Assembly (NCBI GenBank): GCA_016931225.1
Contig: JAFGFE010000019.1
Location: forward strand, 1 to 64,000
Reading direction: 5' to 3'
DNA: 64,000 nt
DNA from: Candidatus Zymogenaceae bacterium
GTDB taxonomy: Bacteria > Desulfobacterota > Zymogenia > Zymogenales > Zymogenaceae
In this document: positions 2,983 to 26,706 of the stretch, piece by piece
Layout: each line of letters begins with the position of its first letter
Position numbering within the stretch: position 1 is the stretch's first letter
Made by a program: the position numbers and the translations under genes
Notes under the pieces: model-generated
The model's input: only the letters and a program-made list of their open reading frames with translations
The model's database searches: none
What the model was told of the DNA's origin: nothing

Positions 2983-3022
2983 GATCGGTTACTCCGATTT
3001 GTCGTTTCCGGTTATCTCTCGC

Positions 3023-18710: not shown

Positions 18711-20408
18711 TCAGTCCATACGCCACAGGTTGTGCCTCCTGACGATCTCAAAGAGTTCCTCCGACCGGTTCTCGATGCGTTCAAAGCTCCACTCTCCGCC
18801 GTTTTCCACAAGCTTCTTGGTGATGTCAAACTCGCAGTCCCGGTAATGGTGCTCCGTAATCTTCTCGTTGAACATCTTGTTCGAATATTTCAGATACCAT
18901 TCCCCCTTGATGAGCGTCAGGTTGCCGATGCGGTTGTGGTATTCCCGGTGCAGCATGGCGATCTCGTCGTCGCTCCGACCGGTTCTTTTCAGGTAGTCCC
19001 TCCACTGGTTGGTCAGCCGCTTCGGCATGATATGCTCGGTATGGACCGAACGGTAATCAACGCCGTTGGACACCGGTACCGTCGGCGTCGTCAGCCGATG
19101 GAGGATGTATTTCGTTTTCGGTTCGTTCGGGTTGAAATGACGGGAGATAAAATCGTTTTCGAATATCTCGTCGGTTACCCGGTTTTCTTCCAGGAGCCTT
19201 GTGAGAAATTCCCGGATGAACGCACGGAATCGATCGGGCGCCTCACTCCCCAGGACCACACACAGGTCGTTATACATCTTGTCGAGGTTGCCGGCGAAGC
19301 GGTTGCACACCGCCCACCTGATATGAAAGGTCTCGATGTCGCCCAGGATACAGGACACGTCCTCCTCCGAAAGCGCATCCGTTTCCTCAAAGGCCTCCAA
19401 AACCAAAAGCAGCAGAGAATGGGCGGCGAACGCCTTGATGAAGTTTAAATTCCTGAGCCTGCGATTGACGTCGGCCGATTTCGTGGTGCCGTCGAGGATT
19501 TTTTCGTACAGCAGCGCCTTCTCGGAAAGATCCACGGCGAAATCACGCACATCCTCCACCGACAGGCTCTCGATAATATGCCGGATGCGCTCATAGACCC
19601 TCGCCTCGGATACCTTTCCCCGAAAGCGTGAGAGGATGTACCGGCGGAAGAACGTCACCGGATCACGATCCCTCAGCCGGTCGTACATGTCGTTGAGCCG
19701 GGAGATCACCAGGTCGAAGGTCTCCCGGTCTTCCGCCACCTTCATCAAAATGAAGTTCTTTATCAGGTCCGCCGACGACAGCTCCAGCCCCCGGTCGTTG
19801 AGGGTTTCGAACAGGCGAAAGGCGTTCAGGTGGCTGAACACATTGATGTGCACCACCGAAACGCGATTTAAGAGCTTCGTGTAGAGGTCCTCCAGATCGC
19901 CGTAGCGGAGGCTCTCGTCCCTGAAGTAGTGGTAGCATCTGACCAGAAGATTGGTGGGATCGTCCGGGATTTTGCCCCGAAGGATGGAGCTGAACACCTC
20001 GTCATCGTAAGTGGAGAGGATCAGTTTCGGCTGGGTGGTGCGCTCGCCGCCCCGCACCTGGTCGATGGAAAAATAATCGGAGATGAAATCGGCCACCTTG
20101 TCCTCGCCCCGGCGCTGGAAGATGTCCTTCAAAGCCGCCAGCCAGATCAAAATGGTGGCGAGCCTCTGCTGGCCGTCCACCACCTGGAAGGTATCGATGT
20201 TCGTGTCGGTCACATCATCCGGCACCACCACGAACGAGCCGAGGAAGTGAACGTCGGAATCCGTGAGGTTGGTCAGATCATCAAGCAGCTCCTGCCACTG
20301 CTCGTCATTCCACACATAGGGACGCTGATACAGAGGCACCCGGTACGCCTTGCTTTGATCCGAAAGGAGCTGAAGGATGGATATTTCATTCGCATCTAAA
20401 AATTTCAT
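18711..20408 (-). CDS. DUF262/DUF1524 (GmrSD-like) protein, putative modified-DNA nuclease
   Basis: A 565-residue single-chain protein. The N-terminal DUF262 (GmrS-like) half has VPLYQRPYVW (about 24-33) and the nucleotide-handling motif DGQQR at 78-82. The C-terminal DUF1524 (GmrD-like) half has a His-Asn-His nuclease pattern: HTEHIMPKR, then HNRIGNLTL and a distal Asn in YSNKMFNEK. In GmrSD these domains bind NTP and cut glucosylated hydroxymethyl-cytosine phage DNA; many fused homologues are predicted phage-defence proteins. Here no methylase or other defence gene is adjacent. The gene is flanked by the terminator and an AT-rich region, as expected of a solitary acquired gene. Activity is inferred. 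Confidence 0.88.
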   Translation of the reverse strand: MKFLDANEISILQLLSDQSKAYRVPLYQRPYVWNDEQWQELLDDLTNLTDSDVHFLGSFVVVPDDVTDTNIDTFQVVDGQQRLATILIWLAALKDIFQRRGEDKVADFISDYFSIDQVRGGERTTQPKLILSTYDDEVFSSILRGKIPDDPTNLLVRCYHYFRDESLRYGDLEDLYTKLLNRVSVVHINVFSHLNAFRLFETLNDRGLELSSADLIKNFILMKVAEDRETFDLVISRLNDMYDRLRDRDPVTFFRRYILSRFRGKVSEARVYERIRHIIESLSVEDVRDFAVDLSEKALLYEKILDGTTKSADVNRRLRNLNFIKAFAAHSLLLLVLEAFEETDALSEEDVSCILGDIETFHIRWAVCNRFAGNLDKMYNDLCVVLGSEAPDRFRAFIREFLTRLLEENRVTDEIFENDFISRHFNPNEPKTKYILHRLTTPTVPVSNGVDYRSVHTEHIMPKRLTNQWRDYLKRTGRSDDEIAMLHREYHNRIGNLTLIKGEWYLKYSNKMFNEKITEHHYRDCEFDITKKLVENGGEWSFERIENRSEELFEIVRRHNLWRMD

Positions 20409-24612: not shown

Positions 24613-25653
24613 TCACGCCTCATAGATATCGCACCCCGGAAACGTGGCGGCGAACCCGTACCACCGGGCGTAAAGCTGCATGGGCCGGGGCGCGAACAGC
24701 GGGGCGCCCTCGGCGTCGAACAGGTCCCCCCCAATAAACTCCGCCCCGGAATCCAGGACGATCTCCGTGCCCTCTCGCCGGGCGATTGTCGCCTCCCGGG
24801 CGCCGGGGGCCGTAAGCATGATCGCCCCGGGAACGCTGTTCCGGGAATCCAAACAGATCAACAGCTTCCTCCCGGAGAGCACGTCGATCAGCCCCCTCCC
24901 CGATCTTTCCAGTCGCCTGATGGTTTTGATTGGGTAGTACCGGGCCGAAACAGAACCGTCGGCCTCCTCCATCCACACCCCCAGCCCCAGCTCCCAGGAG
25001 GGCCGTCTTGTGTCAATGGTCGTGAGGGTCTTTTTGAGAAAGGGAAGGGTGAACCGCCCCACGTACACGCGGTTGAGCTCTATGAAAAACGACATCAGCC
25101 TTTGAAATAGGGTTTGTCGGGAATACGCAAGGTGCGCCGCCGGATACCGCTTAAGTGCGCCGGTGACGGTCGTGTGGAGCAGCGGAACCAGCGTCATCCG
25201 TTCCCCGGTCAACTCCCCCTTTATGCACACGCCGGTGATGTGGTTCCAGAAGGATCTGGTCTCCCGGTCCCGTATAACGATAAGCCCGTCAGAGAGACCG
25301 CCCGTGTAAAACGTCAGTCTCCGTCCGTTCACCTCCGGGATCATGCCCACCCCGGTATTGCACTCCGCTCAGAAGGTCACCGCAAACGGTACCCCCGCCA
25401 GTTCCCCCTGGGCGATGTGGTGATAGGTGATCTGGGAGGTCACAAAGGCAAGCGGCGGCCGACCCTCCCCCGGCTCCAGCACCAGTACCTGCTCGTCTTT
25501 TCGGACGACACGGGTCTCGAGGGCGTCGGGCAGGGGAAAGGTCCGGGTGACGTCAAAGGGGACGAAGAGCGAGGTGCTCATCCGATCGATTTTCGACGCA
25601 CCACGTGTCCCGGCCGGCTTTTTGTGTGTCATATGCTTCTCCGCCTCTCTCAT
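24613..25653 (-). CDS. DUF3179 domain selenoprotein candidate (in-frame UGA = Sec95)
   Basis: Read through one TGA (25371-25369), this frame encodes 346 residues that match DUF3179 throughout. Before the TGA comes ITYHHIAQGELAGVPFAVTF; after it AECNTGVGM, then RRLTFYTGGLSDGL, IRDRETRSFWNHITG and the closing YARWYGFAATFPGCDIYEA. DUF3179 proteins normally have G-V-P-V-x-V-T-Y-C-P-L-C-N/G-x at this point, so the TGA replaces the first Cys of CxxC and gives U-x-x-C. A 7-bp hairpin with a 7-nt loop starting GG lies 20 nt after the UGA, as bacterial SECIS elements require. The start codon overlaps the stop of the upstream hydrolase (ATGA). No signal peptide is visible, unlike many DUF3179 proteins. 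Alternatives: a nonsense mutation, or two separate peptides (second start ATG 25344). DUF3179 function is not established. Confidence 0.8.
25335..25355 (-). promoter_or_regulatory. SECIS-like hairpin in the DUF3179 mRNA
   Basis: On the mRNA, CCGGGGU (25355-25349) pairs with AUCCCGG (25341-25335) over 7 bp (one G-U) around the loop GGGCAUG. The loop begins 20 nt after the UGA and has G in its first two positions. These fit the general bacterial SECIS rules (about 16-37 nt from UGA to the loop; G among the first two loop bases). Confidence 0.65.
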
Positions 25654-26534
25654 GTTCGGGCCATGAACTCCCGGATACGTTCCGCTATCTCCTCTCCCTT
25701 CTCCTCCTGGAGGAAGTGGCCCGCGTCCGCAATGGTGACGGCGGGCTGATCTTTCGCCGTCGGGATGAGTTTTCTGAAAAATTCGTCCGCCCCGACGGAG
25801 ATCGGGTCCTTATCGGAAAACATCACGAGGGCCGGCTTTTTCCACGTCTTGAGCCGTTCTCTCGTGTCCCGGTTGTGCTCCGCTGCCGGCTGATCCTCTT
25901 CTACCGGCACCATGAGGGGCCAGGCCCGGGCGCCGGCCTTGGAGGCGGCGTCGAAAAACGGCGCCAGGTAGGCGGCCATGACCTCATCGGTCAAAAGGCT
26001 CTTGTCATGCACCCCCATTTGCATCACCAGGTCTATGGGGAGGTCCGGCGTGTTCCTGACAAAGTTCTGCCACTCCAAAAACGCCTTCCCCGGTTTCTTA
26101 CCGGTGGGGAGGCCGGTGTTCAGTATCACCAGCCGACGGACCACCTCCTCGTGGAGCACCGCAAACCGAAGGCCGATCATCCCTCCCCAGTCATGGACCA
26201 CCAGGGTCACATCGGAAAGGCCCAGATCTCCGATGAATCCCTCCAATGTGTTCAGGTGCAATAAAAAGGTGTAGTCCGCCTCTCGGGAGAGCTTGTCGGA
26301 CCTGCCGAACCCGATAAAGTCCGGCGCAATAATCCGATAGGTGTCCGAGAGTCCGGCGATGATCTTCCGATACAGGTAGGACCACGTCGGCTCCCCGTGG
26401 AGACACATGATCGTCTCCCCCGCCCCTTCGTCGACATAATGAACGCGAAGCCCTCCGACGTCAATGTAGTTCGGTGTGTAAGGAAAGTCCGAGATATTCT
26501 CGAACCGCTCATCAGGCGTCCTGATCACATCCAT
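25650..26534 (-). CDS. Haloalkane dehalogenase-like alpha/beta hydrolase
   Basis: A 294-residue alpha/beta-hydrolase closest to the DhlA-type haloalkane dehalogenase group. The N-terminus IRTPDERFENISDFPYTPNY matches that group; the oxyanion region is LHGEPTWSYLYRK; the nucleophile elbow is VVHDWGGMIG, with Asp as the nucleophile; the catalytic His is in AGHFLQEEKGEEI. A possible acid Asp lies in FSDKDPIS. Dehalogenases of this type displace halide from haloalkanes, but the fold also includes epoxide hydrolases and esterases. The start at ATG 26534 has GGGAGGGGG close upstream; the longer frame to 26621 lacks this. Its stop overlaps the start of the DUF3179 gene, so the two are translationally coupled. 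Confidence 0.88.
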   Translation of the reverse strand: MDVIRTPDERFENISDFPYTPNYIDVGGLRVHYVDEGAGETIMCLHGEPTWSYLYRKIIAGLSDTYRIIAPDFIGFGRSDKLSREADYTFLLHLNTLEGFIGDLGLSDVTLVVHDWGGMIGLRFAVLHEEVVRRLVILNTGLPTGKKPGKAFLEWQNFVRNTPDLPIDLVMQMGVHDKSLLTDEVMAAYLAPFFDAASKAGARAWPLMVPVEEDQPAAEHNRDTRERLKTWKKPALVMFSDKDPISVGADEFFRKLIPTAKDQPAVTIADAGHFLQEEKGEEIAERIREFMART

Positions 26535-26706
26535 ATCCCCCTCCCGAAAAATATCGACGCGAAACGGCTTTACGGGCCGACCGGTGAAACAAGTATACGT
26601 ATTTTCGTATGGGAAAGTCAAAGGTTTTACACCGCCCCGTCATCGTCATCGCGGTGCGGTATTGTCCGCGGGATAGCGTCGGTTTCCGATACGACGAGAT
26701 TTTCCC

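Follow-up and report, generated by a model that had tools for sequence, protein, structure and literature searches.

Organization of the DUF3179 locus

The DNA analyzed here, hereafter the window, comprises positions 1–64,000 of contig JAFGFE010000019.1 (64,000 nucleotides) from the assembly of Candidatus Zymogenaceae bacterium (GCA_016931225.1; genome G000). Its minus strand carries a DUF3179 gene with a TGA at codon 95 (Table 1). The gene is 1041 nucleotides long, a length divisible by 3, and its only other in-frame stop is the terminal TGA at codon 347 (24615–24613); no frameshift is needed, and the two same-phase minus-strand frames that the first-pass annotation had described as parted by TGA alone are one frame of 346 codons, with residues 1–94 upstream and residues 96–346 downstream of the site. 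The first-pass annotation had also taken the joined frames for a DUF3179 protein, and the read-through product indeed matched Pfam DUF3179 (PF11376) with an E-value of 4e-21 over residues 49–175, a match that spans the TGA and scores 76.1 bits against a gathering cut-off of 27; all 17 members of the family alignment used below (A4) match the same model. The G+C content at third codon positions is 0.77 before the TGA and 0.79 after it, and codon-position G+C is similar on both sides, as expected of one coding gene. Translation may start at the ATG at 25653, which overlaps the upstream gene's stop codon, or at the ATG at 25632, which is preceded by a Shine-Dalgarno-like sequence. No signal peptide was evident in the 346-residue protein, and no sequence support was found for an internal duplication of its two halves.

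Table 1. Features of the DUF3179 locus (positions in the window)
Feature	Positions	Strand	Details
Predicted DUF3179 selenoprotein gene, read through TGA	24613..25653	minus	346 aa; Pfam match, frame analysis
TGA codon 95, predicted selenocysteine of UxxC	25369..25371	minus	aligned with TGA or Cys in homologues
Predicted bacterial SECIS hairpin	25335..25355	minus	CCGGGGU-GGGCAUG-AUCCCGG; 7 bp, covariation
Alpha/beta hydrolase, haloalkane-dehalogenase-like	25650..26621	minus	upstream; overlaps DUF3179 start by ATGA

The ATGA overlap with the hydrolase gene, together with the recurrence of this pair in the nearest relative (G001), suggests that the two genes form a local operon and are not general partners; among conserved neighbors screened for clues to a pathway, no general partner was found, the hydrolase being present in G000 and G001 only. 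A radical SAM gene adjoins the DUF3179 selenoprotein gene in three genomes (L091 4284–5477, L092 3597–4568, and L097 3838–4707). Elsewhere in the window (18711–20408, minus strand) lies a GmrSD-type restriction endonuclease with GmrSD_N and GmrSD_C domains, a known anti-phage defense gene.

The window holds 48 in-phase frame pairs that are separated by TGA and have at least 70 codons on each side. Nine TGA-spanning frames of the window were scanned in a search for further read-through selenoproteins; Pfam matches turned up in only two of them, and neither pointed to a single domain split by TGA. Rfam gave no match in the window at gathering thresholds. TGA-split frames alone are common in the window, and what goes beyond chance is the occurrence of the TGA at the one family-invariant Cys-type residue and its recurrence in unrelated genomes.

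Selenocysteine machinery

Genes for the decoding apparatus, for which the first-pass annotation had proposed a search, are all present in the host genome: selA (599 bits), selB (371 bits; on contig C19, which also carries the DUF3179 gene), selD (357 bits), and a tRNA-Sec with the anticodon UCA (tca), each above the curated cut-off. The host selD gene (L034, G000:C33:20044-20973, minus strand) itself contains an in-frame TGA, in the motif AAGUAAK, where SelD proteins usually have Sec or Cys; this TGA is an independent case of recoding in the same genome. By its gene content, the host is able to make selenoproteins.

Among the 27 genomes with a TGA copy of the DUF3179 gene, SelB exceeded the cut-off in 23; of the remaining four, G001, G395, and G584 have tRNA-Sec, and G399 has neither SelB above the cut-off nor tRNA-Sec, probably owing to incompleteness. 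In G001, a draft that is 89% complete, SelB was not found at an E-value of 1e-40. Since SelB also occurs in 12 of 20 Gemmatimonadota genomes lacking the DUF3179 gene, its presence is weak support for recoding.

Conservation of the TGA site

Relatives were taken from Gemmatimonadota and Thermoactinomycetaceae genomes. In the family tree, a short form, to which the window protein belongs, splits from a long form with full support. The nearest relative, encoded by G001 of the same family as the host, is 45% identical and retains the TGA. TGA occupies the site in 34 of 38 non-redundant short-form sequences, and Cys in the remaining four; the TAA and TAG codons that would have spoken for decay were looked for, and no stop other than TGA was found at the site in this set. 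In the Gemmatimonadota sample, each full-length match carries exactly one TGA and no further stop, and re-reading of the loci placed this TGA in the same alignment column; one partial match (L088) does not include the site, and its TGA sits elsewhere. Both TGA and Cys were found at the equivalent column of the long form in the host's own phylum. The alternation of TGA and Cys that the first-pass annotation had proposed to seek by read-through alignment is therefore present. In the sampled genomes, the short subfamily appears almost always to use UGA, and it may differ elsewhere.

The four short-form Cys copies all belong to Paludifilum or Marinithermofilum, both of which also have TGA copies. 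Tandem DUF3179 genes with a Cys copy beside a UGA copy lie at 2040–4880 of L006 (Marinithermofilum abyssi) and at 3001–4743 of L004 (Paludifilum halophilum). With these natural Sec/Cys pairs in cultured Thermoactinomycetaceae, the contribution of selenium could be tested directly.

Residue 95 (U/C95) is the sole Cys-type position that is invariant across both long and short DUF3179 proteins in alignment A4. The second position of the motif (Cys98) is C in the short form, whereas long-form proteins have C, T, or A there, and His78 is nearly invariant across the family.

A SECIS-like hairpin downstream of the TGA

The bacterial SECIS model specifies a loop of 3–9 nucleotides with G in the first two places, located 16–37 nucleotides after the UGA, and a stem of 4–16 bp with an energy of at most −7.5 kcal/mol (PMC13188914). 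The window hairpin, with a 7-bp stem, a 7-nucleotide loop (GGGCAUG) located 20 nucleotides past the TGA, and an energy of −12.5 kcal/mol, lies within these constraints. Taken in the window alone, this hairpin does not stand out (z −0.48; 8.7% of all window TGAs have a candidate stem at least equally long), so it counts through its conservation only. Across 36 aligned homologues, the stem is 88.9% paired, and five of the seven stem pairs show changes on both sides. Compensatory cells numbered 18, against 6.4 in shuffles that leave the relatedness among the 36 homologues in place, and none of 500 shuffles scored as high; when the partner strand was slid, pairing fell to 33–59%, and unprompted RNAalifold returned essentially the same stem. 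In three of the four Cys copies the lower stem has been lost; the fourth (L006 2040–2858) still has a complete SECIS-like hairpin past its TGC codon, apparently left over from a time when the site encoded Sec.

Interpretation of the in-frame TGA

The gene almost certainly encodes a short-form DUF3179 selenoprotein in which UGA codon 95 is read as selenocysteine. Placement of this residue at the first position of UxxC, as put forward in the first-pass annotation, agrees with the presence of the machinery, the alternation of TGA and Cys, and the covarying SECIS-like hairpin.

A plain nonsense mutation splitting a Cys-type DUF3179 gene is very improbable: table 11 reads TGA as a stop, and the absence of a short-form copy from G002 and G003, of the same family as the host, marks the gene as dispensable, but a pseudogene does not account for TGA at this codon in 33 other non-redundant sequences of the clade from at least three groups, for a coding signature that is alike in both halves, or for a covarying hairpin. 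The recurrence of the codon in independent genomes, including those of the cultured isolates Paludifilum and Marinithermofilum, also speaks against a Cys codon that was misread or misassembled. Although the assembly is a draft in 46 contigs and a single base separates TGA from TGC or TGT, such an error is even less probable. Hardly more credible than that error is genome-wide reassignment of UGA (as in code 4) or its reading as Trp rather than Sec; a relaxed UGA would open the frame too, but relatives lacking UGA have Cys and never Trp at the site, SelA, SelB, SelD, and tRNA-Sec are all encoded, and the DUF3179 gene itself terminates with TGA. No Cys paralogue was found in the host genome in a search with the DUF3179 protein, and a second copy was not detectable.

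Under selenocysteine decoding, the UGA at codon 95 would be decoded by SelB and tRNA-Sec(UCA), assisted by the hairpin about 20 nucleotides downstream. Without recoding, the gene would be annotated as two fragments or as a pseudogene.

DUF3179 is not known to have an assigned function, and a literature search found none. The invariant Sec/Cys, the nearly invariant His78, and the optional second Cys together suggest Sec/Cys-dependent selenol/thiol redox or peroxidase-like (peroxide) chemistry. The protein would then be a redox enzyme in which Sec95 may serve as the attacking or electron-transferring residue, possibly aided by His78, which the family shares; Cys98 would be an optional resolving partner.

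Predicted fold

A sequence search against solved structures gave no match. A structure model of the window protein (pLDDT 86.6) was compared with the PDB by Foldseek, and the best local matches were Rieske ferredoxins (probability 0.9–1.0; rmsd of ~3 Å over 86–89 columns; TM 0.54–0.61 by target). The DUF3179 core could accordingly be a Rieske fold whose [2Fe-2S] cluster has been exchanged for a reactive Sec/Cys, working by selenol/thiol chemistry on that scaffold; this proposal, which is compatible with Sec decoding, is rather unlikely, as the Foldseek E-values are weak (0.02–0.2) and profile comparison with Rieske domains by hhalign reached a probability of 11.7% over 14 columns (reversed control, 0.5%). 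Somewhat more doubtful still is the broader scenario that DUF3179 derived from a Rieske-type domain, its Fe-S cluster giving way to one reactive Sec/Cys, and that the short subfamily has settled almost entirely on selenium; if true, a Rieske fold would have been put to new catalytic use.

An uncharacterized protein of the giant virus Indivirus ILV1 (A0A1V0SD44) matched the DUF3179 model (E-value 1.5e-6; probability 1.00) and was the only strong fold match in the viral library. A search of viral contigs (viral_contigs) found no phage or virus relatives by sequence.

Comparison with known systems

The suggestion in the first-pass annotation that DUF3179 might be a new selenoprotein family does not hold. 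DUF3179 (PF11376), with the motif UxxC/T, is already listed as a selenoprotein family in two reviews (PMC9312934; PMC13188914), and both credit its selenoproteins to the study of the Olavius algarvensis deltaproteobacterial symbiont (Zhang and Gladyshev, 2007); the window gene adds a member to this known family, the discovery of which is not new. NCBI labels such proteins “DUF3179 domain-containing (seleno)protein”, among them the haloarchaeal Halorubrum salinarum WP_321167241.1, a member of the same family that is flagged as possibly Sec-containing and shows 32% identity to the window protein, over half of the latter only. No NCBIfam model matched the window protein at an E-value of 1, and NCBIfam release 20 gave no meaningful match to the short or long form tested.

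The short form is recurrent in Gemmatimonadota and sparse in the host's phylum, where only G000 and G001 among 395 genomes have it, so horizontal acquisition by the host is possible.

Rieske [2Fe-2S] ferredoxins (such as PDB 5bok and 4nbb) may share a beta-rich core with DUF3179, as judged from the structure model, and differ from it in having CxH...CxxH cluster ligands; the CxH-x(n)-CxxH pattern is absent from alignment A4, which contains no CxxH. The published DUF3179 selenoproteins belong to the same Pfam family as the window protein and have Sec at the identical first position of the CxxC-like motif. The window protein belongs to the shorter clade, characterized by YHHxAQGELxGxPxxVxFUxxCNTG, whereas the long form has WHExVN...CPLC; the published example may be of either form. 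What is added to the known family, on sequence evidence, is a compact subfamily predicted to use UGA almost always, together with the tandem Sec/Cys copies of Thermoactinomycetaceae.
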